From Clostridia bacterium (GTDB lineage Bacteria; Bacillota; Clostridia; Oscillospirales; CAG-272), in contig JAGBIF010000046.1 in NCBI GenBank assembly GCA_017935065.1, positions 86,220 to 150,219 on the forward strand: a DNA stretch of 64,000 bases, in the 5' to 3' direction. Positions 2,978-42,343 of the stretch are shown here, piece by piece. The notes under the pieces were generated by a model that was not told where the DNA came from, did not search any database, and saw only the letters and a program-made list of their open reading frames with translations. Every line of letters starts with the position of its first letter. The stretch's first letter is position 1. A program made the translations under genes and the position numbers.

Positions 2978-5900
2978 TTATAAATACAGTGCTTCGCCGT
3001 AGGCGAGAGAGTAGATGCCGACTGTCTTTGGGGATTTGCCAAACATCCTCGTTACCGCCTCGCTGTAATATGTGAGCTGCTCGCGGTGCCTCTCGATAAG
3101 CACCTGCTTGCCCTCACTGTCGCTGACTACGGGTGTGCCGTCGGCTTTTTTTCTTGGGCGCCTGTCGGTTTTGTAGTCGATTATATGAAGCTCGCCCGCC
3201 TCATCCTTATAGACACAGTCAATGACACCCTGGACGAGTATTGCCTCGTCACGCAGCGCCTCGCGCCTTGCGGTGTTTTCGGGGCTCACAAAGTGTGATG
3301 CCGAGAGCAGTACGTTGAAGCGCTGTTCCCTGAAAAGCCCCTCTCTTGCGTGTGCGCTAAGCATATTCGCAAAAAGCTCGGAGCGCGCAAAGGTCTCTAC
3401 CTCGCGTACATTGACTTTATCGGCATCGTCCTTGCTTAGGAAGCCAAGCTCGGTCAGCCTTTGAAGCTCATTTGCAACACCTGCCGCCATCAGCTTTTCG
3501 GGATTAAAGAACTGCATAAAGAGGTGCGTTGCCGTACCGCGCGCGGCGGCATCGTATTCCTCTGTGTCTTGCATAAATTTCGGGATGGGCTCTCTTCCTT
3601 CCTTATCGTTTTCTGCTTCACCTGCTGCTTTTGCAGACCTGCTCTCGCCGCCGCTTTTGCTTTTTTTGGACAGCTCATCGACCGACTGCGCGTAGCCGTC
3701 TTCGTCGAGTATTCTCGGTGTCAGCACCGATACGGAAAGCTTCTCGGGTATTCCGAGCTTTTTCTCGCTGTGATACTTGTATTTAAACCGCCTCTCAAGC
3801 GCCTCTGCCGAGCCGTCGGTGCTCTGCCCGTCGGAGTGTGAGGCCGCTGCCGTAAGGGACTTCGCGCTTGCGTCGGAGCTGCCGTTTATGCTTTTAATAA
3901 GCTCGGTTACCTCTTTTCTTGAGTGCGTGATATATTTTACCGTCTTATCCGCATCCTTCGTACATTCGCGACAGAAAAGAAGCATATCAAGCACGCTGTA
4001 AAAGCTTTTGAGAATATATCTTGATTTGAAGCTTACCGACTTTTTGATATCGTTTTCCTTCGCCCTCACATCCCTTACCGAGCCGTAAATATACAGTCTT
4101 TCTCTGGCGCGTGTGAGCGTTACGTACAGTACACGCAGCTCTTCCTCGTACTCGCGCTCGCTCTGGTAAAGACGGACGATGTCCTCACTGGAGTCCTCAA
4201 GCGAGGCAAGACCGCTGTCATCAAGAATTCCAAAGCCGATGCCGAAATCATTGGCAAGCGCCACGTGCACCGCCGCCCCTCTGGGGTTTGCGCCTATAGG
4301 CTTTCCTGCCTCGGGCATAAACACAACGGGGAATTCAAGTCCCTTTGACGAGTGCGCGGTGATGAGGGTGACCTTCGTGCGCTTTTCCACCTCGCCCGAA
4401 TCCGAGGACTTGAAGGTCTCGCCCTCTTCAAAGAGCTTATTCACGTAGCAGATAAAGCTGTAAAGTCCGCGGAAGGAGCTTGCCTCAAAGCTGCGCGCAT
4501 GCTCGTGAAGCAGACGAAGGTTATCGCGCCCGCCCGCGCCCGCAATCGCAAGAAGCCCCGTTTCCTTATAAAGGAGCGAAAGAAAGGCATCGATAGACAT
4601 TCCGCGCGAGAGGTCTCGGTATCTATATAAATCCTCTATAAGCCTTCTGCCCTTTTCAAATTCGCTATGAGACGCGTTGTATCTCACGACGGCATCGTAA
4701 AGAGCTTCCCCGCGTACGGCACCCTTTTTAATCGCGGCAAGCTCATCAAAGCTGAAAGAGAACAGAGGTGATACCATTACCGCGCAAAGATAGACGTCAA
4801 ATCTCGGGTTATTTATTGCGTTGAGCAGTGAGAAGGTAAGAAGCACCTCTTTGTTTTTGAAGAAATCCGACTTATCCTTTATCTCGTACTCTATTCCGCG
4901 CCTCTTCAGCGCGTCGACGTAGCGGTGCAGGTTGGTCTTAGTGCGGAAGATAATGGCGATATCTCCCGCCGTAATCTCTTTACCGTTCGCCAGAAGCTCA
5001 TTCGGGTTGTTTATGAGACTTGCGATTTTGTCAACCGCAAGCGCCGCCATAGCCTCGGACTTTTCAAGCTCATCTTCCTCAATCGCATTTCCAAGCGAGC
5101 GTGCCTCGGTATCCTGATCTTCCTTCTCTGCCCCGACATCATCGGCGTTCGCCCGTGCCTCGTCCATCATATCGACAACGTGAATCTCGGGAATGTGTCC
5201 TCTCGGGAACTCACCCTTGTCGGCATCGTATTTTTTCGCAAAGCAGAGGCGGTCGCCGACAGAGTAGGCAATGCTCTGCCCAAGCTCTGCGAAGATTATG
5301 TCAAATACGCTGTTGACGTAGTTGATAACAGGCTCGTCACAGCGGAAGTTGCCCGACATAAACAGTGTTGCGCAATCGGTATAGGGGGCATCCCTTTTTA
5401 GCTCGGGGAAGGAGGCCTTCTTCGTTTTAAAGAAGTCGGGCTTTGCCGAGCGGAAACCGTAAATGCTCTGCTTGATATCGCCTACCATAAAGCAGTTGTC
5501 GGGGCGCGAGATCGCCTCGAATATTTCACCCTGAAGGGCGTTTACGTCCTGATACTCGTCGATATATACATCGCTGTATTTTTCCTGAAGAGCTCTGGCA
5601 AACTCGGTAGGCTTGCCATCCTTGCCGATTACCGCCTGATATGCATATCTTTCGGCATCGCGGAATTCAACTATGTTGCGATATCTCTTGTCTGCCATAA
5701 AGGCTTTATCAAATTCCTTTAAGAATTTATATATAATCTGTCCGTTTTTGTAAATTATACCGTACAAAACGGCGATATTATCCTCGGAATTGAAAAAGTA
5801 TTTTGAGGCGAGAGATTTATTTTTTGCGAATATATCTTTCTTGAAATGTTCGCGCCACTTTTTGATTTCCTCGTACAGATCGCTTTTACAGCTTGCGATT

Positions 5901-6802
5901 GAGTCAAATTTCGTGCTCTGAAGCTTATCGTAAAGCTCGCCGTAGGTCCTGCAGGCCTTGATTTTTGTAAGGATATCAATGTCCGAGTCAAGCGTAGCTA
6001 TTGTATCTTCACATTCACCCTCGGCTGCCAGCTGTGCCTTATAGTATTCGTGCTTCGCTATGACAAAATCAATATACTCAAAAAGATGCTCGCGAATGAG
6101 CTTGAACTGCTCGGTTGCGCTGAAGCCCCCCGCGCCTAGCTTGTACTTATCAAGAAGGTCACAGAGCGTATCAAGCCCGCGCTTTTCATTGGAGAGCTTG
6201 TCATAGAGATAGAGGAACACGTCCGACAGGTCCTCGTCGCTCCTTACGGGAACAAGTCCGTCTGCGAGCCTTTCAAATTCCTCTCTCGAGCATACCTCGG
6301 GGAGCTCGTCCGCCAGAGCCGCGCCTATCATCGCGTCAATAAGATTTTTTGCGATAAGCGCCGCCTCGACAGGGTCGGCTATGCGGTAGGTAGGGGAAAG
6401 CCCTACGTCTTCCGCGCACTGACGGAGTATCTCGTTGCAGAAGGAGTTTATGGTGACTATCTTTGCATCCTTCACGCGAAGATACTGCTCTTCAAGCGAC
6501 CTTGCCAGCGCCCTCGCGCTCTCATCGCAAAGTCCGAGGTGTGCCTGCTGCTCGGCGGCGTCTCTTATCGCGTTCGTTATTTTCCTCTTAAGGTCCGAAA
6601 CCGCCGCGTTTGTGAAGGTGACGATAAGCATTTTGCCAAGGTCCTTGGGATTGTCCCTGTCAAGAATAGACTGTATTATCCTCTCTGCAAGCGTTGCCGT
6701 CTTTCCCGAGCCTGCCGCGGCAGATACGAGCAGGGTGCGGTCGCGCGTGTCTATGGCGAGACGCTGCTGCTCGCTGAACTCAATTTTTTTCTTTTTATCC
6801 AT
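2978..6802 (-). CDS. addA: ATP-dependent helicase/nuclease subunit AddA
   Basis: At 1274 residues this is full length for AddA, the helicase-nuclease of the AddAB complex that processes double-strand ends for recombination. It has a UvrD-type N-terminus with Walker A SAAAGSGKT (27-35), a DEYQD Walker B box near 413, helicase motif TLTRARERLY, and a C-terminal RecB-type nuclease with GTATH, QGVID, IIDYKTD (about 1205) and EQLTYYSEA. It lies 20 bp downstream of truB on the same strand and is probably co-transcribed with it. In many Firmicutes addB directly precedes addA; no addB is present here, so the partner must be elsewhere or replaced. AddA carries no iron-sulfur cysteines, which belong to AddB. 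Confidence 0.95.
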   Translation of the reverse strand: MDKKKKIEFSEQQRLAIDTRDRTLLVSAAAGSGKTATLAERIIQSILDRDNPKDLGKMLIVTFTNAAVSDLKRKITNAIRDAAEQQAHLGLCDESARALARSLEEQYLRVKDAKIVTINSFCNEILRQCAEDVGLSPTYRIADPVEAALIAKNLIDAMIGAALADELPEVCSREEFERLADGLVPVRSDEDLSDVFLYLYDKLSNEKRGLDTLCDLLDKYKLGAGGFSATEQFKLIREHLFEYIDFVIAKHEYYKAQLAAEGECEDTIATLDSDIDILTKIKACRTYGELYDKLQSTKFDSIASCKSDLYEEIKKWREHFKKDIFAKNKSLASKYFFNSEDNIAVLYGIIYKNGQIIYKFLKEFDKAFMADKRYRNIVEFRDAERYAYQAVIGKDGKPTEFARALQEKYSDVYIDEYQDVNALQGEIFEAISRPDNCFMVGDIKQSIYGFRSAKPDFFKTKKASFPELKRDAPYTDCATLFMSGNFRCDEPVINYVNSVFDIIFAELGQSIAYSVGDRLCFAKKYDADKGEFPRGHIPEIHVVDMMDEARANADDVGAEKEDQDTEARSLGNAIEEDELEKSEAMAALAVDKIASLINNPNELLANGKEITAGDIAIIFRTKTNLHRYVDALKRRGIEYEIKDKSDFFKNKEVLLTFSLLNAINNPRFDVYLCAVMVSPLFSFSFDELAAIKKGAVRGEALYDAVVRYNASHSEFEKGRRLIEDLYRYRDLSRGMSIDAFLSLLYKETGLLAIAGAGGRDNLRLLHEHARSFEASSFRGLYSFICYVNKLFEEGETFKSSDSGEVEKRTKVTLITAHSSKGLEFPVVFMPEAGKPIGANPRGAAVHVALANDFGIGFGILDDSGLASLEDSSEDIVRLYQSEREYEEELRVLYVTLTRARERLYIYGSVRDVRAKENDIKKSVSFKSRYILKSFYSVLDMLLFCRECTKDADKTVKYITHSRKEVTELIKSINGSSDASAKSLTAAASHSDGQSTDGSAEALERRFKYKYHSEKKLGIPEKLSVSVLTPRILDEDGYAQSVDELSKKSKSGGESRSAKAAGEAENDKEGREPIPKFMQDTEEYDAAARGTATHLFMQFFNPEKLMAAGVANELQRLTELGFLSKDDADKVNVREVETFARSELFANMLSAHAREGLFREQRFNVLLSASHFVSPENTARREALRDEAILVQGVIDCVYKDEAGELHIIDYKTDRRPRKKADGTPVVSDSEGKQVLIERHREQLTYYSEAVTRMFGKSPKTVGIYSLAYGEALYL

Positions 6803-6822
6803 ATTTACAGGTGTCCTCTGCT

Positions 6823-7719
6823 TTATATCAAAAATTGCTTCGTGGGCTTTATCACAGGCTCTCCGTCAAGCTCTCTGCACTCACCGATTGCGAAAAATTC
6901 GCCCGCGCGGTAGAGCCTTACCTTTGTGCCGAGGTCAAGCCTAATTCCTATTTTGCGAAGATATATCGGGCATCCCGAGGACGCAAGCCTTGCAAAAAAG
7001 TCAGGGAGGGTAACCTTGGCATAATCCTCGAATACACGCTCGGTTGGGAGGATTGCCCCCGCGCGCTCGTCGGGTGTCATTGCCTCAAGCTCATCCAGCG
7101 TGTAGGCATCCTCAAGCGTGAAGATGCTTGCCCTCGTGCGAAGAAGCGCGCTCATAATTCCGCCGACACCGAGAGCCTCGCCTATGTCGTGGCAAAGCGT
7201 GCGGATATAGGTGCCCTTCTGACAGTGAACGTCAAGCGAGTAGTTTTTTTCGTCAATTCGTGTGACCTCTATTGAATGTACCGTGATTTCCCGAGCCTCG
7301 CGCTCGACCGTCACGCCTGCTCTTGCAAGGTCGCAGAGCTTTTTTCCGCCCATCTTTATTGCCGAGTACATAGGAGGCGTTTGCTTTATTTTTCCAACGA
7401 AGGCACCGATAACCCTGCGCACCTCGTCCTCATCGGGAATATCGCCCGCGTGAGTGTAAAGCACGGTGCCCGTCGCATCCTCGGTGTCGGTCTTAAGCCC
7501 CAGGGTAAGGGTTGCTCTGTAATACTTGTCCGAGGTGAGCATATAGTCACTCGCCTTTACCGCCCTGCCGAGAAGAACGGGAAGCACACCCGTCGCCATA
7601 GGGTCAAGAGTTCCCGTATGGCCTGCCTTCTTCTCACCGAAAAGATGCTTTACCCGACTTACAACTGCCTGCGAGGTGAGGTCCTTCGGCTTGTTTATAA
7701 CGATAATTCCTGATTGCAT
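6823..7719 (-). CDS. truB: tRNA pseudouridine(55) synthase TruB
   Basis: 298 residues, the usual TruB length. It makes pseudouridine 55 in the T-psi-C loop of tRNAs. The N-terminus reads GIIVINKPKDLTS, and the catalytic Asp is in GHTGTLDPMATG at about residue 40. Further family blocks are KYYRA, QTPPMYSAIK and GTYIRTLCHDIG. The C-terminus carries a small PUA-like extension. It is transcribed from the promoter at 7758-7786 and followed after 20 bp by addA. Confidence 0.96.
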   Translation of the reverse strand: MQSGIIVINKPKDLTSQAVVSRVKHLFGEKKAGHTGTLDPMATGVLPVLLGRAVKASDYMLTSDKYYRATLTLGLKTDTEDATGTVLYTHAGDIPDEDEVRRVIGAFVGKIKQTPPMYSAIKMGGKKLCDLARAGVTVEREAREITVHSIEVTRIDEKNYSLDVHCQKGTYIRTLCHDIGEALGVGGIMSALLRTRASIFTLEDAYTLDELEAMTPDERAGAILPTERVFEDYAKVTLPDFFARLASSGCPIYLRKIGIRLDLGTKVRLYRAGEFFAIGECRELDGEPVIKPTKQFLI

Positions 7720-7757
7720 AGGGCAGATGCCGCCTTCCTTAAAATATTTTCTGTTTT

Positions 7758-7786
7758 ATTTTACCATAGCTTTTGCGAAAATTCAA
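7758..7786 (-). promoter_or_regulatory. Promoter of truB-addA
   Basis: On the minus strand, TTGAAT and TAAAAT are separated by 17 bp, with TGG just ahead of the -10. It lies about 40 bp upstream of the truB start. Confidence 0.6.
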
Positions 7787-7794
7787 GAAAAGAC

Positions 7795-7823
7795 TTGTCA
7801 AAAATAAAAATATATAGTAAAAT
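7795..7823 (+). promoter_or_regulatory. Promoter of the ACT-domain gene and UPF0210 gene
   Basis: TTGTCA (7795-7800) and TAAAAT (7818-7823) are spaced by 17 bp, divergent from the truB promoter. Confidence 0.6.
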
Positions 7824-7876
7824 AGAGCAAAGCGAAAACGCGCTTTTGAAAAGCAGCTTTGAAATGGAGAAAAATT

Positions 7877-8146
7877 ATGAGAGCAGTTATAACCGTAACG
7901 GGTAAGGACAAGGTCGGAATTATCGCGCTTGCGAGCGCGGAGTGCGCAAAGGCGGGCGCAAATATCATTGACATAAGCCAGAGCGTGCTTCGTGAATATT
8001 TCGCGATGATCATGCTCGTTGAGCTTGACGGGCTTGTTGGCGACTTCAAGAGCTTTGCCGATACGATGAGCAAGGTCGGTATGGAAAACGGTGTCGATAT
8101 CCGCGTTATGCACGAGGACATCTTCAATACTATGCACAGAATATAA
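7877..8146 (+). CDS. ACT domain-containing protein, UPF0237 family
   Basis: 89 residues forming one ACT domain, starting MRAVITVTGKDKVGIIA. The ATG at 7877 is chosen because GGAGA lies just before it and the family begins exactly there; an in-frame ATG 18 bp upstream would add six unrelated residues. ACT domains bind small ligands, often amino acids. In Firmicutes this protein is typically encoded directly upstream of a UPF0210 protein, as here (15-bp gap), suggesting the pair works together. The exact ligand is unknown. Confidence 0.92.
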   Translation: MRAVITVTGKDKVGIIALASAECAKAGANIIDISQSVLREYFAMIMLVELDGLVGDFKSFADTMSKVGMENGVDIRVMHEDIFNTMHRI

Positions 8147-8161
8147 TTTCGGGGGTGCGTG

Positions 8162-9520
8162 ATGCTTAATACTCAGGACATTCTTGAAACTATAAGAATG
8201 ATAAGAGAGGAAAACCTTGATATAAGAACGGTTACTATGGGTATTTCCCTCTTTGACTGTATCAGCGACGATATAACGAGGCTTGAGGAGAAGATCTATA
8301 ATAAGATTACCGCCTCGGCAAAAAGGCTCGTGTCGGTGTGTGAGGAGCTTGAGGCGACCTACGGTATTCCCATTGTAAACAAGAGAATAAGCGTAACACC
8401 GATCTCCTATATCGGTGCGGGGCTCTCACCCGACGGCTTCGTGCGGCTTGCAAAAACGCTTGAGCGTGCCGCCTCGGCGCTTGGCGTAAACTTTATCGGC
8501 GGCTTCTCTGCGCACGTGCAGAAGGGCGAGATAATAGGCGCGCACAACCTTATCGAGGCAATACCCGAGGCGCTCTCGGTCACCGAGCACGTTTGCTCGT
8601 CGGTAAACGTTGCTACCACCAAGGCGGGCATAAATATGGACGCGGTAAGGAAGATGGGCGAGATAATAAAGAAGACCGCCTTCATCACCAAGGACAGGGA
8701 TTCTATCGGCTGTGCCAAGCTTGTCGTGTTTGCAAACATTCCCGAGGACAACCCCTTTATGGCGGGCGCCGTGCACGGAATAGGCGAGCCTGATACCGTA
8801 ATCAACGTCGGTGTCAGCGGTCCTGGTGTCGTTGCCGCCGCTATCAAGGAGGTAGGGCACTGTGACTTCTCGGCTCTTGCCGAGACTGTAAAGAAGATAG
8901 CCTTCAAGATTACGAGAGTGGGACAGCTTATCGCGGCAGAGGCATCGCAGAGGCTCGGAGTGCCCTACGGCATTGTTGACCTCTCGCTTGCCCCCACACC
9001 TGCCGCGGGAGATTCGGTCGCGGAGATACTTGAGAATATGGGACTTGAGATGGCGGGAACTCACGGCACCACCGCCGCGCTTGCGCTTCTTAACGATGCG
9101 GTTAAGAAGGGCGGAGTTATGGCGACCAACCACGTCGGAGGCCTTTCGGGCGCGTTTATCCCCGTCTCTGAGGACAGAGGTATGATTGCCGCCGCCGAGG
9201 CAGGCGTGCTTACCATAGAGAAGCTTGAGGCGATGACCGCCGTATGCTCGGTAGGACTTGATATGTTTGCGGTCCCCGGGGACACCTCGGCGGCGACCAT
9301 ATCGGGCATTATTGCCGACGAGATATCTATCGGTGTGGTAAATAACAAGACCACCGCGGTAAGAGTTATTCCCGTATGGGGCAAGGGCGTCGGTGAGTCC
9401 GCGGAGTTCGGCGGACTTCTCGGCTATGCGCCTATAATGCCCGTCAAGGGCGAGTCCTGCGAGGAGTTTATCTCGCGCGGCGGAAGAATACCCGCACCTA
9501 TACACTCGCTGAGAAACTGA
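8162..9520 (+). CDS. UPF0210 / DUF711 family protein (PFL-like fold)
   Basis: 452 residues, family-typical length. It starts [14 protein letters not shown] and contains the glycine-rich blocks [20 protein letters not shown] and [16 protein letters not shown]. The ATG at 8162 follows GGGGGTG; an overlapping GTG three bases earlier is less likely. The family resembles pyruvate formate-lyase in fold but lacks an established activity. It is partnered with the upstream ACT-domain protein, which may act as its regulatory subunit (inference). A strong terminator follows. Confidence 0.93.
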
Positions 9521-9553
9521 TGCTTATTTAAAGATACCGATAATAATACGAGG

Positions 9554-9582
9554 CCGTCCGACAGTCGGACGGTCTTTTTTCT
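9554..9582 (+). terminator. Intrinsic terminator after the UPF0210 gene
   Basis: CCGTCCGA (9554-9561) pairs with TCGGACGG (9565-9572), followed by TCTTTTTTCTTTT. Confidence 0.9.
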
Positions 9583-9638
9583 TTTATTTGCCGTTAAGTC
9601 CATCTTTGTTTACAAAACCGCGTTATTTTCTCGCAAAA

Positions 9639-9672
9639 TGCGACAGGACGCGCCACCTCTCTTTGATATAAT
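9639..9672 (+). promoter_or_regulatory. Candidate Spo0A-controlled promoter of spoIIE
   Basis: TATAAT lies at 9667-9672. A -35-like GCGACA (9640-9645) sits 21 bp upstream, overlapping TGCGACA (9639-9645), which differs from the Spo0A box TTCGACA by one base. The unusually long spacing recalls the Spo0A-activated spoIIE and spoIIG promoters of Bacillus subtilis (known). Assigning Spo0A control here is inference. Confidence 0.45.
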
Positions 9673-9708
9673 CTACAATAGAATAACAGTATTAAGAGGT
9701 ATATGCTT

Positions 9709-11802
9709 ATGGATAACAAACGAGATAAGGGCGCTTTTGGCGAGTTCCTTTCGGGGATAGCTAAGCGTCGGGGAAGGGATAAGGAGCAGGGTATCGTCTC
9801 GGTGCTGTGCTGTGCGGTGGGCTTTTTGTTTTCGGGATGCCATCTTATATTTGGCGCGTATCCCTTGGGGATATCCTTTGCCGCATCCCTTAACCGCGGT
9901 GTGTGGTTTGCTCTTGGCGGTGCGGTGCTTGGCGCGCTTCTTATGGGCAGAGACGGAATTGCTCTTGCGCTCGTCACGGTGCTTTCGGTGCTTCTTCGCG
10001 TAATTATTTCCTCACAGAATAAGGGGCGGGCTATGTTCTCTGAGAGCCTTACTCTGCGCGTATCGAGCGCTGCGGTGTCGGGGCTGGTACTTGCTATATA
10101 TGAGATCCTTCTGCGCTCGCTTTCGCTTACTACCCTGCTTTTCGGTGCCTTCATGACCTTAAGTCCTATCGTGCTTGTCCCGCTGTTTGCCTGTATCCAT
10201 ATCAAGGGTGTCTCGTTAAGGGAGGTCCTGCTCGGCGGTGATACCCCATTGTTCGGAAGCGGCGCGAGAGGGCGTAGGCGCCCATCCCTTATTGCCCTCA
10301 GAATATCGGGCGGGAGCTTTATTTTCTTCATCTCGCTTTCGCTTAGCACATATAGCATATTCGGGGTTGACATCTCGCTTATCTTTGCGACGGTGACCGC
10401 CGTGCTTCTCGCCAAGCGCTTCGGCGCTCTCTACGGTGCGGTGGGAGGCTTTCTCGCCTCGGTCGGTATAGCCCCGCTTTATTCGGTATCCTTTATGCTC
10501 TTCGGTGTCGTCGCGGGCGCGCTCTGTCCCCTGAGCCCGCTTGTTGCTCTGGCGCTTGGCACGGGAGCGCTTGCTCTGTTCTCGGGCTATGCGGGAGAGG
10601 TAAGCGGGCTTCTGTCGGTTTTGCCTGAGTGCCTCATAGGAGCTACTCTCACCTACCCCCTCTTGAAAAAGCTGACTGCCGAGCCTATCGCGGATGCATC
10701 TTTGGATATAAGACGGCTTGCGAACGATATGGTAGGAACGATGACAATGTCCTATCGCTCATCCTTGGGCGCCGCCGACGATAATATACCGTCTGCCATT
10801 GCCGAGCTTTCCTCTCTCGCGGGCGATTTCTTTCCGTCGGCGGCATGGATGGGCTCGGGCGAGGTATCGCTTCTGTCCTCGCTTATGAAGGACTCGCGTG
10901 ACTATCTGCTGTCTTTGCGCGAGATCGACGAGGAGCTTACCGAGCGTGTCGGCGGAGTGTTCGCCGAGGCGGGCTTTACCGATGCCGTCGTGAGGGTGTT
11001 CGGGGGTGAGGAAAAATACCTGCTTGCCGCTGCCGAGGATGCGGGCGGTGAGGCGATAAGCTCGCCTGAGCTCAAGAAGAAAATTGAGGAGGCGACCGAC
11101 TTGAGGTTCAGAGAGCCGAGGTTCTACCGTCGGGGCGAGATGGTGCTTATGGAGCTTTACCAGGCACCGAAATATAAGCTTCAGTATAACACCGTTTCCG
11201 AGGCGGGCGGGGAGGGTGAGGTGTCGGGAGACTCTCTTGCGGTTATATCGGGCGCGGCACAGAGGAGGAGCTTCGTCATATCCGACGGAATGGGAAGCGG
11301 AGATGTGGCAAGGGCGGCATCGCAGTTCTGCGTGAAATATTTTGACGCAATGCTCAAAACCTACGCGAGAGAGACTACTCTGGTCAGGCTTTTAAACGGA
11401 ATGCTGAGAGCCTCGTCGGAGGAATGTCCCGTCGCGCTTGATGTTCTCTCTGTGGACCTATACAGCGGAAGGGCGGGATTTCTCAAGGCGGGTGCGGTCT
11501 GCTCATTCATAAGGCGCGGGGATAGCCTTTTCAGAATAAAAAGCGAGACTATGCCCATAGGCGTGCTGAAGAGTGCCGAGGCAGAGCTTGTCGAGGCGGA
11601 GCTTGCCGACGGAGACGTGCTGGTGCTTATGTCCGACGGCATCTCGGGCTGCTTTGATGACGCCCCCTGGCTGATAGAGGCTCTGCACGGAGATACCGCC
11701 TCGCTCGAGAGCTTTGCCGCGGGCATTGCCGAGGGCGCGAAGAGCAACAATTCTATTAAGGATGATATGTCGGTTATCGCGGTAAAAATTCTGTCGGCAT
11801 AG
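9709..11802 (+). CDS. spoIIE: Stage II sporulation protein E, membrane PP2C phosphatase
   Basis: 697 residues, shorter than the roughly 830 of Bacillus SpoIIE. The first 320 residues hold about ten hydrophobic segments, then a linker, then a C-terminal PP2C domain with SDGMGSGDVAR, VLMSDGISGCFDD and KDDMSVIAV. In Bacillus, SpoIIE localises to the asymmetric septum and dephosphorylates SpoIIAA to activate sigma-F in the forespore. The ATG at 9709 is preferred over 9703 because AAGAGG then has normal spacing. The gene stands alone between two terminators. The short central region suggests a reduced FtsZ-interaction segment, as in other Clostridia. Confidence 0.9.
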   Translation: MDNKRDKGAFGEFLSGIAKRRGRDKEQGIVSVLCCAVGFLFSGCHLIFGAYPLGISFAASLNRGVWFALGGAVLGALLMGRDGIALALVTVLSVLLRVIISSQNKGRAMFSESLTLRVSSAAVSGLVLAIYEILLRSLSLTTLLFGAFMTLSPIVLVPLFACIHIKGVSLREVLLGGDTPLFGSGARGRRRPSLIALRISGGSFIFFISLSLSTYSIFGVDISLIFATVTAVLLAKRFGALYGAVGGFLASVGIAPLYSVSFMLFGVVAGALCPLSPLVALALGTGALALFSGYAGEVSGLLSVLPECLIGATLTYPLLKKLTAEPIADASLDIRRLANDMVGTMTMSYRSSLGAADDNIPSAIAELSSLAGDFFPSAAWMGSGEVSLLSSLMKDSRDYLLSLREIDEELTERVGGVFAEAGFTDAVVRVFGGEEKYLLAAAEDAGGEAISSPELKKKIEEATDLRFREPRFYRRGEMVLMELYQAPKYKLQYNTVSEAGGEGEVSGDSLAVISGAAQRRSFVISDGMGSGDVARAASQFCVKYFDAMLKTYARETTLVRLLNGMLRASSEECPVALDVLSVDLYSGRAGFLKAGAVCSFIRRGDSLFRIKSETMPIGVLKSAEAELVEAELADGDVLVLMSDGISGCFDDAPWLIEALHGDTASLESFAAGIAEGAKSNNSIKDDMSVIAVKILSA

Positions 11803-36829: not shown

Positions 36830-37261
36830 TCAGAGAAATTTGAGCTTAACCGTTTCCTCGACGATATCAAGGTTTGTGCATATGAGTATGCACCCGCTTT
36901 GCGCAATTTTTGCGGGGCGGTTTTCGGGATTTGCTGAAATATAGAGGTTTGCATAGGCGCTTGCCTCGTCCTGCGTCTTAAAGGTTATAAATTCAACGCA
37001 TTTCGTTCGGTCATTATCCTGAATAAGTGATTGATACGCGGTTACCGTGACGGTAAAATCACCGCCCATTATCTCTATCATTGACGACATCATCCTATTG
37101 ATTTCGTCAAGCTCATCCTCGGTAGTGAGGACACCCTGAGATACAAGTCCCTTTGCCTTAAGGGCTTCGATGCTCTTATCTAAATCAAACGCCTCGGCAC
37201 ATCCCGCGAGTGATAATGTAAGAATGGTAAGCACCGCTACAATTGATATAAGCCTTTTCAT
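36830..37261 (-). CDS. Small lipoprotein, third gene of the TIR operon
   Basis: 143 residues. Lipoprotein signal with lipobox LAGC (Cys21). The mature part has a helical N-terminal half (IEALKAKGLVSQ, DELDEINRMMSSM) and a beta-rich end with FTVTVTAYQSL, ECVEFITF-like (KCVEFITFKTQDEA) and SGCILICT. AGGAG lies before the ATG. It starts 34 bp after the HAD hydrolase gene with no promoter between, and a terminator follows, so it appears to be the last gene of the TIR-NagB transcript. No family recognised. It may be only incidentally linked. Confidence 0.7.
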   Translation of the reverse strand: MKRLISIVAVLTILTLSLAGCAEAFDLDKSIEALKAKGLVSQGVLTTEDELDEINRMMSSMIEIMGGDFTVTVTAYQSLIQDNDRTKCVEFITFKTQDEASAYANLYISANPENRPAKIAQSGCILICTNLDIVEETVKLKFL

Positions 37262-37295: not shown

Positions 37296-37970
37296 CTAGT
37301 TAAGAAGAAGGCTCACAAGCTCGCGGTAATCAGAGACCAGCTTCATAGACGCGTCACAGGCGAGGAAGCGATCTCTTTTTTCTTTTGCGGATGCCATACC
37401 GATAAATCGGCAACCGAAGCTTACGGCACATTCCCAGTCTCTTGGGTGGTCCCCGATATAAAGGGTGTCTGCTGCATCCCAGCCGTTGGTCTCGCATAGG
37501 TGCCTTAGCATATAGGGTGAGGGCTTCATTCTTTCGGTATGAAGAGCCTCTCTTCCTATGACGGGGATATTATATTCGGTGATAATATTCGGCGCGAGGC
37601 TTTCAAAAAATCTCTCAATGCACTCGGGCGAATTGTTTGTGGCGATAGCGATTTTTTTACCAAGGGCGGGCGCGGTCTTTAGAAATTCAAAAAATCCGTC
37701 TACAAGAACTCCTGTCTTGAGCGCCTCGAGTTCTTCCTCGGTCGCCCACATATGAGCCTTTACCAGCAGGTCGCGCTTTATATCATCTGATAAATCGGAA
37801 TTTCTTATTAACGCAAAAGCATCAAAGGCATCATTTTGCTCTGTAAAGCCGATATTGTAAACATTTGTTAGATTATAAAGCCTTTTAATCAGCCTATCCA
37901 GACTATGATTTTCAAAGAGCTTGAAAATCGTTCCGTCAAAATCAAGAATTATATTTGGTTCATTATACAT
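37296..37970 (-). CDS. HAD-superfamily hydrolase
   Basis: 224 residues. Motif I is LDFDGTIF (nucleophile Asp10, Asp12), motif II is ATNNSPE, motif III Lys lies in RMKPSP, and motif IV is GDHPRDWE. The cap is an all-helical insertion after motif I, as in phosphoglycolate phosphatase-like enzymes, so a small phosphorylated metabolite is the likely substrate. The ATG lies inside the end of the TIR-NagB gene (22-bp overlap), so the two are translationally coupled. With a NagB-like partner, a sugar phosphate or ribose phosphate is an attractive but unproven substrate. Confidence 0.88.
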   Translation of the reverse strand: MYNEPNIILDFDGTIFKLFENHSLDRLIKRLYNLTNVYNIGFTEQNDAFDAFALIRNSDLSDDIKRDLLVKAHMWATEEELEALKTGVLVDGFFEFLKTAPALGKKIAIATNNSPECIERFFESLAPNIITEYNIPVIGREALHTERMKPSPYMLRHLCETNGWDAADTLYIGDHPRDWECAVSFGCRFIGMASAKEKRDRFLACDASMKLVSDYRELVSLLLN

Positions 37971-39268
37971 TTAGCTGCCTCTGTCGGGGAAAGATTTTTA
38001 ATGGCGTGGTTCTCAAGTCCTGCACGGCTCACGATTTCCTTTGTTGTAATGAGATACGCGTTTTCGTGATTTCTAAGGAGCGTTACGGGAACGCTCGGGT
38101 CAACGTCTTCCTTGAAAAGCCTTTCAATTGCGTTGCTCTTGTCGCTCTCAAAGGCAAGCATTAAAAGAATATCGGTTGCGAGCGCGGTTTTCAGACCTAC
38201 GGTATATATCGAGTGGGATTTCTGCTTTGCGTCAATATATTCCCTTGTCTCGTCGGTAACCTCTACTACGCGAGGTCCGTCGTTGACGATATCACCTGTG
38301 TGACGCCCGAGATCATATCCGATTATTTCCATATAGGGCGAAATTGATATGCCGTGGATAACGGGTGGGTGGTTGGCAAGATTTTGCGCCGCCGCATCCT
38401 CGGGGTCGAGACAGTCATCCCCCTGACCGAAGAACAGAAGTCTTGATTCCTCGGGGGCGCGATTCATCGCCGAGAGTATATTGATGAGGTTTTCCCTGAT
38501 TGCCCTTACCCTGCTTGTCGGATGGTTCATGCTGACACCGAAGGTTTCGGTATCGTTCATAAGATAGCAGTCACCAAAGGGAGAAGCTGCATATTCGCCT
38601 GTCGCAAGCCTGAGCATAGCCTGGAATACTCGCTTGGCGCTTCTTCCTGTCGGCAGAAGAAGCGTTCTTTCGGGACTTACCTTTGCCTTCTCAAAATAAA
38701 CCCTCGCGGCACATTCGGCTGCCTCGTCTGCGGTGTCAAATGCATAAATTCCCTTCGACCACTGTGTTGTACTAAGCCCTTCGGTTGAGCTTGTGTTCAG
38801 CTTGAGGCTGTCCTTCAATCCTGAAAAATTGATACTGTCGGGGCTGAGGGCATTTGAAAGCGTTTCAAACAGTACGCCTTCCTTGTCGCACTCAACCGTC
38901 TGCACGAGCTTCAAAAAATATTTAAGCACCTTGCTTTCAGGCTCGGACTTATCAAGCTTCAGCCAGAGTATCGGCTTATTGTAATCGTCGGCTATTGAAA
39001 CCTCTCTTATTACATGCTTGCTCTTGTCTGCGTGCCTTGTGTATAAAAGTAAAAGGCATCTGCAGTTCTCAACCGCCTCATGAAGCTTCTCGGGCCACAG
39101 ACCCGCAAGCTTGATGTTCCTCGGTGCGTACCAGGTCTTTATTCCGTTTGCCTCAAGATACTCGGAGAGCTTCAAGACAAAGTCGAACGATTCTCTCTGA
39201 TAGCTTAAAAATACTCTGTCCTTGCCGTTGGAATATTCATATTTTATATGCTTGCTTTTTGATAGCAT
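37949..39268 (-). CDS. TIR domain fused to a NagB-like (glucosamine-6-phosphate isomerase fold) domain
   Basis: 439 residues, no signal or membrane segment. Residues 18-125 form a TIR domain: RVFLSYQRE (18-26), TWYAPRNI (45-52) and SKHVIREV (83-90), where Glu89 aligns with the catalytic Glu of NAD-cleaving TIRs. After a linker, residues 172-415 resemble NagB: LLLPTGRSA (203-211), NDTETFG (238-244), HPTSRVRAIRENLI (249-262) and VGLKTALATDILLMLAF (357-373). The NDGHIAFNEP catalytic block of true deaminases is not recognisable, so this half may bind rather than convert a sugar phosphate. GAGGAGGGG precedes the ATG. It is the first gene of an operon with a HAD hydrolase and a lipoprotein, close to tRNA-Gly. 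Confidence 0.85.
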   Translation of the reverse strand: MLSKSKHIKYEYSNGKDRVFLSYQRESFDFVLKLSEYLEANGIKTWYAPRNIKLAGLWPEKLHEAVENCRCLLLLYTRHADKSKHVIREVSIADDYNKPILWLKLDKSEPESKVLKYFLKLVQTVECDKEGVLFETLSNALSPDSINFSGLKDSLKLNTSSTEGLSTTQWSKGIYAFDTADEAAECAARVYFEKAKVSPERTLLLPTGRSAKRVFQAMLRLATGEYAASPFGDCYLMNDTETFGVSMNHPTSRVRAIRENLINILSAMNRAPEESRLLFFGQGDDCLDPEDAAAQNLANHPPVIHGISISPYMEIIGYDLGRHTGDIVNDGPRVVEVTDETREYIDAKQKSHSIYTVGLKTALATDILLMLAFESDKSNAIERLFKEDVDPSVPVTLLRNHENAYLITTKEIVSRAGLENHAIKNLSPTEAAKCIMNQI

Positions 39269-39365: not shown

Positions 39366-39394
39366 ATTATAGCACATCTTGACTTAAAATTCAA
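39366..39394 (-). promoter_or_regulatory. Promoter of the TIR-NagB operon
   Basis: Minus strand: TTGAAT, 17 bp, TATAAT, with TGC directly before the -10 (extended -10). The predicted transcript has a leader of about 90 bases. Confidence 0.75.
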
Positions 39395-39417
39395 TATTCT
39401 ATCATTTATATATAGTG

Positions 39418-39664
39418 GTGATATACACCTTACGGTGATGATATACAGTCCAGAGGGACTGATGATATACTCGCCTTGTCGAGCTATGCTCGTCAAGGCA
39501 TGATGATATACAGTCCGAGGGGACTGATGATATGCACCTTACGGTGATGATATACTCGCCTTGGCGAGATATGCTTGTCAAGGCATGATGATATACAGTC
39601 CGAAGGGACTGATGATATACTCGCCTTGTCAAGGCGAGATGATATGCCATTGCTTTCGCAATGG
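39418..39664. repeat. Array of nine 9-bp linkers alternating with hairpins
   Basis: The 9-mer ATGATATAC (variants GTGATATAC, ATGATATGC) occurs at 39418, 39438, 39462, 39503, 39527, 39547, 39588, 39612 and 39639. Every interval is a self-complementary element: CACC-TTAC-GGTG (twice), CAGTCC-N4-GGACTG (three times with loops AGAG, GAGG, GAAG), a longer stem GCCTTG...CAAGGC (twice), CTCGCCTT-GTC-AAGGCGAG and CCATTGC-TTTC-GCAATGG. Stems are conserved while loops vary, and the long stem shows pairing-compatible changes. It lies between tRNA-Gly and the TIR operon promoter. No coding potential. Confidence 0.85.
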
Positions 39665-39667
39665 ATA

Positions 39668-39703
39668 AAAAAGGACAAAATTCTTTCGAATTTTGTCCTT
39701 TTT
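39668..39703 (-). terminator. Terminator of tRNA-Gly
   Basis: AAAAAGGACAAAATTC (39668-39683) and GAATTTTGTCCTTTTT (39688-39703) form a 16-bp stem directly after the tRNA CCA end. On the minus strand it finishes in a T-run. Confidence 0.88.
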
Positions 39704-39776
39704 GGAGCGGGTAACGGGAATCGAACCCGCACGGCCAGCTTGGGAAGCTGGAGTTCTGCCACTAGACTATACCCGC
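39703..39776 (-). tRNA. tRNA-Gly (anticodon CCC)
   Basis: 74 bases including the encoded CCA. The acceptor stem GCGGGTA pairs with TACCCGC. The anticodon stem CCAGC/GCTGG encloses TTCCCAA, giving anticodon CCC for GGG codons. The T arm contains GGTTCGATT-type sequence. Confidence 0.93.
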
Positions 39777-40149
39777 GAGTGTAAATATTATACACCCGCG
39801 GAGAATGAATTTCAAGAGGTGTGAGGATTTTTTATGAAAATAAATCGCAAATTTAATAATATGTCATCATGCTTTTTGAGCGCGCCCTTTGCGCGGAATG
39901 AAAAAACAATCGAGAATTATATGTGTTTTTTGTTAATAGCAAAGACGATTGGATGTCTATAATGCATTTTCAAGATTGTCTGGGGTAGCTCTTTTGGGAT
40001 CTTTAAACGAAAAAGGGCTATCTTAATGAGACAACCCTTTCTTGTAATCAGGAATTTATCCTGATTGTATTAGATATGTCAAATGTGAGGCTTGTGCTTA
40101 TCGTTCTTAAAATAGAATTATTCACATTTATATTATTGTCTCGTTGATA
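39777..40149. other. Gene-poor AT-rich stretch upstream of tRNA-Gly
   Basis: No open frame with a ribosome binding site is seen. The only recognisable element is the hairpin at 40012-40040 that can end the minus-strand membrane protein gene. A GCGCGCCC/GCGCGG patch near 39880 is isolated. Confidence 0.6.
40012..40040 (-). terminator. Terminator of the coiled-coil membrane protein gene
   Basis: On the minus strand, AAAGGGTTGTCTC pairs with AAGATAGCCCTTT with two mismatches and is followed by TTCGTTT. It lies about 110 bases after the stop codon. Confidence 0.6.
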
Positions 40150-41052
40150 TCAATACCATGACTTTTTCGGAACGTATGCGGAACAGTTGTCGAGGTATTT
40201 TGTGGAGCAAGTATTATAAAGGCTACAATGCCAACACCTTCTTTGTGCTTCTTCTCTTTCGTTTTCCGCTCTTTCGTTTGCCTCTCGTAATGATAAGAGA
40301 GTTCTCGTTTGTTCCTCTCGTTCCACTTTTCGTCTGTGAGCATCTTCCTCGTAGATATTTAATGCTTCTTTCAGGCTATCTGCTCTGCCGTTTTCAATTA
40401 TTCTAATTATCATTTCTAATTTTTCAAAATCGTGATAGCGTTCGCCTATTCCTGTACTATATAATGCTATGTTTTTGTTGACCGTTTCAAGGTTTTTTTC
40501 TAATATAGCGCAAAGTTTCGGGTATTCTACTTCAAGTTCGGCGCGTTTTCTGTCATATTCTGCGCATTCTGCTTGATGCTTTGAAAGTTTCGCTCTGTAA
40601 TCTGCCATTTTTGTTTTATACTCATCTGAGTATTTCTTGTTCTGTACTTTAACTTCCTCGCATTTTTTTAAGTACGAATTATAATAATAACGGTCGTCTT
40701 TGTCAGCTATATATAGATTTACTGTTCCCCATATACAGGGGGCTATTATTATGGCTAAAAAAAGAATTAACAATCCAAGGTTGCTCAATAAAGCAGAAGA
40801 AAAAGCGGCTATTATTGCTATAACTTCAACAATCGTTGTTAAAATAGCAAATATAAGGTATTTATAGTTTCTTTTTATCTCTTTTGGGGCTTCTGCGATC
40901 TCTTTTACTGGTTCTTTATCAGTGAATGTACACCGTTTTCCTATCTTTTCCTCTACATATGAGTCGACGCCCATATCTATCAATTCTTGGTACGTTTCTT
41001 TCTTTTCAACATATTCCTGCAATTTTTTAAGTTTTTCGAGAATGTCTTTCAT
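40150..41052 (-). CDS. Membrane protein with coiled coil and C-terminal cysteine cluster
   Basis: 300 residues. A charged N-terminal region (1-60) is followed by two membrane helices (about 63-110: YLIFAILTTIVEVIAIIAAF and LGLLILFLAIIIAP). A long Lys/Glu-rich coiled coil follows (125-265), and the C-terminus carries C-x2-C-x5-C-x7-C around CWHCSLYNTC. The cysteine set could bind zinc or an iron-sulfur cluster. No family recognised. The region is more AT-rich than the housekeeping genes, suggesting acquisition. It is divergent from a small HTH protein, and their promoters share one palindromic -35 region, so the HTH protein probably controls it. Confidence 0.75.
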   Translation of the reverse strand: MKDILEKLKKLQEYVEKKETYQELIDMGVDSYVEEKIGKRCTFTDKEPVKEIAEAPKEIKRNYKYLIFAILTTIVEVIAIIAAFSSALLSNLGLLILFLAIIIAPCIWGTVNLYIADKDDRYYYNSYLKKCEEVKVQNKKYSDEYKTKMADYRAKLSKHQAECAEYDRKRAELEVEYPKLCAILEKNLETVNKNIALYSTGIGERYHDFEKLEMIIRIIENGRADSLKEALNIYEEDAHRRKVEREEQTRTLLSLREANERAENEREEAQRRCWHCSLYNTCSTKYLDNCSAYVPKKSWY

Positions 41053-41101
41053 GTTGTATTCCTTTCTAATATTATATACTCTATAAACCGAGCATACTAT
41101 G

Positions 41102-41130
41102 ATTATACTCTATTTATAGACAATTGTCAA
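41102..41130 (-). promoter_or_regulatory. Consensus promoter of the membrane protein gene
   Basis: Minus strand: TTGACA (41125-41130), 17 bp, TATAAT (41102-41107). Its -35 overlaps the -35 of the oppositely directed HTH gene promoter inside the palindrome GACAATTGTC (41119-41128). Confidence 0.8.
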
Positions 41131-41152
41131 TAGGTAGAGTAGAATTTATAAT
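41124..41152 (+). promoter_or_regulatory. Promoter of the HTH gene
   Basis: TTGTCA (41124-41129), 17 bp, TATAAT (41147-41152). It shares the palindrome with the divergent promoter, a likely operator. Confidence 0.8.
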
Positions 41153-41173
41153 AATATTTAAAGGAGGGGACAT

Positions 41174-41380
41174 ATGATTTCGTACGAGCCGTTTTACAGG
41201 ACATTAAAGGAAAAGGGTGTCAGTACCTATAAGCTTATCAATCAGTATGGCATCAGCAGAAGTCTTTTGGACAGACTTAAGCATAATAAGCCTATAAGCA
41301 CTGTTACTGTTGACGATCTGTGTAAGATACTCTCCTGCAGAGTAGAGGATATTTTGATATTTCACGATGAAAATAAATAA
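41174..41380 (+). CDS. Small Cro/C1-type (HTH_26) transcriptional regulator
   Basis: 68 residues, essentially one helix-turn-helix domain: YKLINQYGISRSLLDRLKHN is the HTH core and VDDLCKILSCRVEDILIF the dimer-side helices. AAGGAGGGG lies eight bases before the ATG. It is divergent from the coiled-coil membrane protein gene with an intervening palindrome, so autoregulation and control of the neighbour are likely. A terminator follows. Confidence 0.88.
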   Translation: MISYEPFYRTLKEKGVSTYKLINQYGISRSLLDRLKHNKPISTVTVDDLCKILSCRVEDILIFHDENK

Positions 41381-41382
41381 AA

Positions 41383-41420
41383 GCAACCGAGTGTATATGT
41401 ATAGCTCGGTTGCTTTTTAC
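41383..41420 (+). terminator. Terminator after the HTH gene
   Basis: AAGCAACCGAG (41383-41393) pairs with CTCGGTTGCTT (41407-41417), followed by TTT. Confidence 0.88.
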
Positions 41421-41452
41421 ATTATAATGCAAATAAATATTAACATTATCTG

Positions 41453-42343
41453 TTATTTAAAATAAATTCCTTGGTAAAGTCCGTCATGCTTTAGCTTGGC
41501 TTGTATGGCACAGATGACGGCGTTTTTATCCTTATTCCATTCGGGGGCTGCGAGCATACCGTCGGGGCAATCGCCCGTGATGCGGTGGAGGATAAGGTCG
41601 GGGTTTACGTGCGTTATCACATAGGTGGCAAGGCGCACGTAATCATCAAAGGTGATGGGGACGTACTTACCCTCGTCGTAGAGCCGAGCGAGCCGTGTTC
41701 CCTTCATTACATACACCGAGTGGATTTTAAGACCGAAAAGCTTGTGCGAGTTAAGGAACTCTACCGTGCGGTGTATATCACCGTCATCCTCGCTTGGCAG
41801 ACCTATCATCATATGGGATACAACGGGGATTGAGTATTTGTTAAGAATACGCACAGCTTCGGTGAATACCTCGGATTTATAGCCTCGGTTTATCAGCTCT
41901 GCCGTGGTGTCGCTTGCGGTCTGAAGTCCAAGCTCAACCCATACGTCGCATCTGGTTTTGTAAGAGGCGATAAGACTTGCGATATCCTCGTTGATGCAGT
42001 CGGGGCGAGTGCCTATAGAAAGGACGCGTATTCTTTCGTCAAAAAGCGCCTCGTCATATCGCGACTTCAAGGTCTGTATGTCGGCATAGGTGTTTGTGAA
42101 ATTCTGAAAGTAGGCAATAAAGAGCGAGTCGGGATTGGAGTTAAGCCCTGCCTCGACCTGCTCACGGATGGAAGCTCTTTCCTCTATATGCTCGCCCGCG
42201 CCTCGCTCACCGCAGAAGATGCATCCGCCCTTGCCGCACCTGCCGTCACGGTTGGGGCAGGTGAAGTGTCCGTCGATGCAGATTTTTTTAAGTCTTTGCC
42301 CGTATGTGCCCTTTAAGTAAGAGCTTAAGTTGTTATAGAGCAT
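41453..42343 (-). CDS. Radical SAM protein, TIGR01212 (YhcC) family
   Basis: 296 residues. The N-terminus YGQRLKKICIDGHFTCPN and the cysteines C29, C36, C41-x2-C44 (CPNRDG...GGCIFC) are the family's cluster-binding region. SIGTRPDCI, WVELGLQT and MIGLPSE continue the radical SAM barrel, and the C-terminus matches full-length members. YhcC-like proteins are widespread; the substrate is not established, though links to tRNA or stress functions have been proposed. It stands alone between the HTH gene and tRNA-Thr. Confidence 0.93.
   Translation of the reverse strand: MLYNNLSSYLKGTYGQRLKKICIDGHFTCPNRDGRCGKGGCIFCGERGAGEHIEERASIREQVEAGLNSNPDSLFIAYFQNFTNTYADIQTLKSRYDEALFDERIRVLSIGTRPDCINEDIASLIASYKTRCDVWVELGLQTASDTTAELINRGYKSEVFTEAVRILNKYSIPVVSHMMIGLPSEDDGDIHRTVEFLNSHKLFGLKIHSVYVMKGTRLARLYDEGKYVPITFDDYVRLATYVITHVNPDLILHRITGDCPDGMLAAPEWNKDKNAVICAIQAKLKHDGLYQGIYFK

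Follow-up and report, generated by a model that had tools for sequence, protein, structure and literature searches.

TIR and NagB-like domains in one protein

The window analysed here is a stretch of 64,000 nucleotides from a Clostridia bacterium (GTDB order Oscillospirales, CAG-272; assembly GCA_017935065.1, contig JAGBIF010000046.1, positions 86,220 to 150,219). Its reverse strand carries two overlapping genes that are the subject of this analysis: a fusion of a TIR domain to a NagB-like sugar-phosphate domain (37949..39268; 439 amino acids, ATG start), here called TIR-NagB, and its partner, a gene for a HAD phosphatase of 224 amino acids (37296..37970; HAD_2 E 2.9e-15).

The N-terminal domain (residues 16-146; 38831..39223, reverse strand, as for all features of the pair) scores above the curated TIR profile cut-off and has a TIR fold, and the C-terminal domain (residues 171-430; 37979..38758) has a NagB/6PGL fold. 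The two-domain architecture is not in doubt, and the fusion reported in a preliminary description of this DNA is confirmed as an observation: both domain identities hold, the C-terminal half gave a fold match when tested for the NagB/ISOCOT fold, and the family does not consist of stand-alone TIR proteins with unrelated tails. Conservation was read from an alignment (A2) of 95 of the 131 family proteins then known, leaving out near duplicates, fragments, P0122 and P0131. The preliminary description had placed Glu89 (codon 39002..39004) at the position of the catalytic Glu of TIR nicotinamide adenine dinucleotide (NAD) hydrolases; we likewise take it to be the catalytic residue, from the TIR motif and its position in the model, and it is Glu in 95/95 sequences. 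Residue 85, before Glu89, is His (38/95) or Gln (57/95), where many TIRs have Trp. This substitution would suit a TIR that serves as a non-catalytic assembly domain on a NagB-like domain acting only as a dimerisation platform, which we consider very improbable given the invariance of Glu89 and a pocket conserved far beyond the needs of a platform.

A remodelled and strictly conserved pocket

TIR-NagB misses the curated scores for NagB (33.3 of 236.9 bits for TIGR00502; 14.3 of 27 bits for PF01182), and three of the four catalytic positions of Escherichia coli NagB (D72, D141, H143 and E148) are altered across the family. In profile alignments, the position of D72 is Thr in 94 and Ser in 1 of the 95 sequences, that of D141 has Val, Tyr or Leu in most of them, and that of H143 is Glu throughout; the position of E148 is Glu or Asp in 90/95 in one alignment and is gapped differently in a second. 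In alignments to solved NagBs, D239-T240-E241 coincides with the NMDEY segment, and the NDGH segment corresponds to S310-P311-x-x-E314, so that SPYMEIIGYD (residues 310-319; 38312..38341), with P311 and E314 both at 95/95, occupies the place of the NagB NDGH..NE block. The LPTGRS loop (residues 205-210; 38639..38656), which aligns with the NagB loop, is kept (L, P and T 95/95, G 94/95, R 93/95, S 87/95), as is Lys377 (codon 38138..38140; 95/95), whose K-A aligns to the K-A of NagB; we take the equivalents of this loop and lysine to be phosphate ligands in NagB.

The preliminary description had called the NDGHIAFNEP catalytic block missing. The loss of the deaminase block stands, but "missing" does not, since the block is replaced by residues that are at least as conserved, and conservation of this degree suggests either that the ligand is specific or that the chemistry has changed. 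For a specific ligand there is a precedent in the SorC-family regulators, whose effector-binding domains are described as phosphosugar-binding NagB homologues with an active site adapted for effectors (PMC11229326).

Exchange of partner domains

The NagB-like module also occurs with other partners. Among 120 relatives listed in a further search, seven lacked a TIR Pfam domain, and P0122, P0160 and P0161 were kept as TIR-less. Other candidates were rejected: P0132, P0136, P0142 and P0164 start within TIR-like sequence and were judged by eye to be truncated, and P0053 and P0121 look truncated. In P0122 a trypsin-like peptidase (Trypsin_2 E 3e-10) precedes the NagB-like domain, which groups with that of the TIR-bearing P0150 (support 0.979) in a tree of weak rooting, its outgroup being only a 59-residue piece, from which we used only this pairing. 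P0160, a single sequence, and P0161, which represents three, have the NagB-like domain first, followed by about 145 C-terminal residues that in P0160 are modelled as a helical bundle (predicted local distance difference test scores mostly 66-88). Two of the three partner swaps rest on one metagenomic cluster each. The peptidase and helical-bundle versions retain the pocket residues of TIR-NagB. Sensor-effector immune proteins typically exchange their effector domains while the second domain stays constant, and the exchange of partners on a constant NagB-like domain argues, by analogy, that this domain is the receiving, or sensor, side.

A coupled phosphatase or kinase gene

The last 22 bases of the TIR-NagB gene (37949..37970) are also the first 22 of the HAD gene, from which we infer translational coupling. 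By tblastn, a HAD-family gene adjoins TIR-NagB at all nine clostridial loci examined, the window and L004-L011: the overlap is 16 bases in L004 and 19 in L006, L007, L009, L010 and L011, the genes abut in L005, and in L008 the HAD gene lies upstream across a 161-base gap. The HAD motif residues D10, D12, N112-S114, K149, D174 and D178 are kept in 9/9. The sequence is closest to phosphoglycolate-phosphatase-like models, far under their cut-offs. A profile of this HAD subfamily found, at E<=1e-20, only the window's own among 391 genomes of the class, a count for which at most seven first-look candidates were scored per genome and the window's HAD was part of the profile; held-out members score 214.9-319.3 bits. 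The subfamily looks dedicated to TIR-NagB.

At the four Nocardia loci, tblastn found no HAD match, and in all four a PfkB-family kinase gene begins 25 bases ahead of the stop codon of TIR-NagB; this kinase is closest to ribokinase models, under their cut-off. Further PfkB genes occur at L005, L008 and L010, the first two of which also have ROK kinases. The coupling of TIR-NagB to a HAD or PfkB gene is new here. Mainly because a kinase and a phosphatase share the same coupled position in two lineages, the ligand would be one defined by its phosphate.

Tight two-gene coupling, a dedicated HAD and the integrases found at two loci (below) could also suit a toxin-neutraliser module, in which TIR-NagB is a toxin that the HAD restrains directly or by clearing its trigger, and which serves mainly to retain an element in the genome. 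We think this quite unlikely: the coupled gene in Nocardia is a kinase and not a HAD, which makes a specific protein antidote unlikely, and the HAD motif residues, kept at every clostridial locus, point to catalysis rather than mere binding.

Distribution and genomic neighbourhoods

The search for further fusions that the preliminary description had proposed returned 155 relatives at E<=1e-3, with a TIR Pfam domain in 119 of the 120 listed. A GTDB-type genome collection holds at least 12 TIR-NagB loci in two phyla (seven Clostridia or Clostridiales metagenome-assembled genomes, one Faecalibacterium and four Nocardia genomes), a lower bound because the scan depends on short patterns. Within the window's family TIR-NagB occurs in 1/295 genomes, and nine other genomes of the same genus are listed without it. 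A profile of the C-terminal domain found only the window's own genome among 398 of the phylum, and the full TIR-NagB profile matched 11 of 391 genomes of the class, ten of the 11 over the TIR part only. The spread is patchy. The alignment A3 left out L011 and L015. The window's genome also holds a second TIR-like match (L002, G000:C4:9720-10067; 27% identity to the TIR part, E 3.4e-10).

Several neighbourhoods point to defence. In L010 (Faecalibacterium sp. An122), the cassette has beside it (5538-9815) a phage-type integrase and also a NACHT protein whose C-terminal domain is SNaCT7; in L006, the genes directly after the TIR-NagB-HAD pair (4377-7200) encode a TIR protein of CAP12/Pycsar type and a phage-type integrase; and one open reading frame (ORF) of L007 has a TIR_2 match. 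With the patchy spread, these neighbours count for a defence role.

Other observations weigh against a sensor-gated immune protein. Searches of 50,697 phage records and 72,556 plasmid records, and two scans of viral contigs, found no TIR-NagB match, and a phage, plasmid or viral origin was dropped on the same ground. The defence-system models of PADLOC had no match for eight of the ten neighbours scanned at related loci and gave only weak TIR-type matches for TIR-NagB itself (best E 2e-7), and a Pfam scan of seven window proteins found no defence type except the TIR. No partner enzyme is universal, since the HAD is absent from the Nocardia loci and a PfkB partner from the window, and P0122 is a lone sequence from a contig of 4.6 kb. 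Some loci have the look of sugar metabolism, with GH3 genes in L005 and L008, GH18 in L009 and the ROK and PfkB kinases, and the kept NagB-like pocket could still be that of an enzyme of other specificity.

The last two points bear on a reading in which the NagB-like domain still works as an enzyme but with altered specificity (an isomerase, a lactonase, or a deaminase for another sugar phosphate), with TIR and HAD in the same metabolic or salvage route. We regard it as unlikely, though worth weighing, as three of four NagB catalytic positions are changed, the TIR, peptidase or helical partners of the module suit a regulator better, and the spread is patchy. TIR domains with this catalytic Glu are, to our knowledge, NAD-depleting effectors wherever they have been tested, and for this reason we place defence somewhat ahead of metabolism, though the trigger may be metabolic.

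Some further genes were noticed at these loci. A family of proteins of about 730-765 amino acids occurs near it at four of the nine clostridial loci (L004:10532-12724, L006:141-2336, L007:11581-13878 and L011:9929-12160); the L006 member ends 3 bases before the TIR-NagB start. The three members scanned (L004, L006 and L007) have no Pfam match, and the C-terminus of the family is RyR-like by eye. Two RyR-domain genes lie upstream of the L007 cassette (3743-6109 and 6122-7957; Pfam RyR E 7.7e-8 and 6.3e-6); the 788-amino-acid RyR protein of L007, HD-like and SLOG-like by eye, has an 85% identical counterpart in L011 (5439-7715). L005:1995-3374 encodes a 459-amino-acid protein with a methyltransferase domain and an N-terminus that is TIR-like by eye.

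Surroundings of the pair in the window

In the window, the neighbours of TIR-NagB are the HAD gene, a lipoprotein-like ORF, an ORF that looks coiled-coil-like but has no significant match, and a gene for a radical SAM protein. The lipoprotein-like ORF (36830-37261, same strand, downstream of the HAD gene) has no Pfam match and no similar ORF at the other TIR-NagB loci, and is probably outside the module. About 100 bases upstream of the TIR-NagB ATG lies a promoter-like site (39366..39394, reverse strand; TTGAAT-17-TATAAT with TG ahead of the second hexamer) that matches the consensus at 10 of 12 positions; it is a consensus match only, in a region with 11 such sites against 4.4 (standard deviation 2.1) in shuffles.

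Between the TIR-NagB gene and a tRNA-Gly(CCC) gene (39703-39776) lie imperfect direct repeats of 41 and 85 bases (39402-39650; GATGATATAC-type units), one unit of which has three copies, all within this interval, with 0 expected by chance. Beyond the tRNA, in the interval 39703-41500, the sequence is AT-rich (GC 0.33-0.39, against about 0.5 further out), with an ORF of 300 amino acids (40150-41052) and a small regulator-like one (41174-41380); this stretch may be a separate mobile insertion. Synteny of the window with ten same-genus stretches is too poor for an empty-site comparison, only single genes or the adjacent pair 35688-36149/36152-36733 being matched, and no tRNA gene was found in these ten stretches.

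Proposed mechanism and relation to known systems

With its TIR, its putative sugar-phosphate sensor domain and an overlapping, presumably signal-setting phosphatase gene, the TIR-NagB and HAD pair is likely a metabolite-triggered immune switch. From its sequence, the TIR domain is predicted to cleave NAD+. The NagB-fold domain, presumably no longer a deaminase, would act as a sensor that likely binds a sugar phosphate, and binding would turn the TIR on. The overlapping HAD phosphatase would then remove the signal by lowering the ligand, and the PfkB kinase of other loci would raise it. The outcome would be that cells which are infected, or whose metabolism is disturbed, are depleted of NAD+, a form of abortive infection. 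To this whole chain, a TIR NADase that is gated by a phosphosugar and coupled to an enzyme that sets the ligand, we give a chance just short of even. That a NagB-fold sensor gates the TIR had been proposed in the preliminary description; it is partly supported, and still something that we infer. It gains weight because the pocket is remodelled yet strictly conserved, because partner domains swap on the same module, and because of the coupled phosphatase or kinase gene, which the preliminary description lacked.

That description had left the ligand as a sugar phosphate or an ADP-ribose-type product. The former is now favoured and the latter less so, because both the partner enzymes and the precedents for the fold point to phosphosugars. 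A NagB-like domain whose ligand is the product of its own TIR, or some other nucleotide derived from NAD, would provide feedback or self-limitation, a Thoeris-like loop in one chain. Thoeris TIRs make ADP-ribose-type signals, and RyR-domain proteins, present at L007, are linked to ADP-ribose-type nucleotides. The closest relatives of the domain and the sensor precedents, however, bind phosphosugars, and no such product is made by the versions with a peptidase or helical partner, whose pocket residues are nevertheless the same; we hold this ligand to be rather improbable.

The preliminary description knew of no protein with this pairing, and our literature searches, in which coverage of subscription papers was poor, likewise found no paper on one. 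Sensor-gated TIR effectors are already known; a NagB-fold sensor in such an effector was not found in the literature. Stand-alone glucosamine-6-phosphate deaminases (2bkv, 1dea) differ from TIR-NagB in the replaced deaminase block, the altered D72, D141 and H143 positions and the TIR fusion. The effector-binding domains of SorC/DeoR-type regulators (CggR, DeoR, LsrR) are likewise NagB-like with the deaminase catalytic set lost, but are fused to a DNA-binding domain where TIR-NagB has a TIR. CBASS/SPARTA-type effectors (TIR-SAVED, TIR-STING, TIR-APAZ) also combine a TIR with a second domain as its presumed gate; SPARTA chains are among the best TIR fold matches, and TIR-SAVED is a weak model match (PADLOC E 2e-7). 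TIR-NagB has instead a NagB-fold sensor, not APAZ, and a HAD or PfkB gene rather than a cyclase or Argonaute; no Argonaute was found among the seven window proteins scanned. Thoeris too includes a TIR protein in a two-gene unit, and its models match weakly (PADLOC ThsB E 5.5e-5; NCBIfam ThcB4 20.8 of 220 bits), but beside TIR-NagB there is a HAD gene and no ThsA-type effector gene.

A broader proposal, which we consider doubtful though well worth stating, is a class of immune receptors in which a NagB-fold receptor for a sugar-phosphate second messenger carries exchangeable death domains (TIR, trypsin-like peptidase or helical bundle), the messenger being written by PfkB and erased by HAD from the same operon; this class would be the phosphosugar counterpart of CBASS and Thoeris. 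Bacterial TIR effectors are known to respond to cyclic nucleotides, to Argonautes with a bound guide, to phage proteins or to signals of the ADP-ribose type. The exchange of partners, together with the kinase or phosphatase coupled to TIR-NagB, leads to a direct prediction, that a specific sugar phosphate would switch the effector on and the HAD would switch it off. If true, a NagB-gated TIR would link NAD+ depletion to phosphosugar metabolism and would be a cytosolic metabolite-sensing immune receptor.
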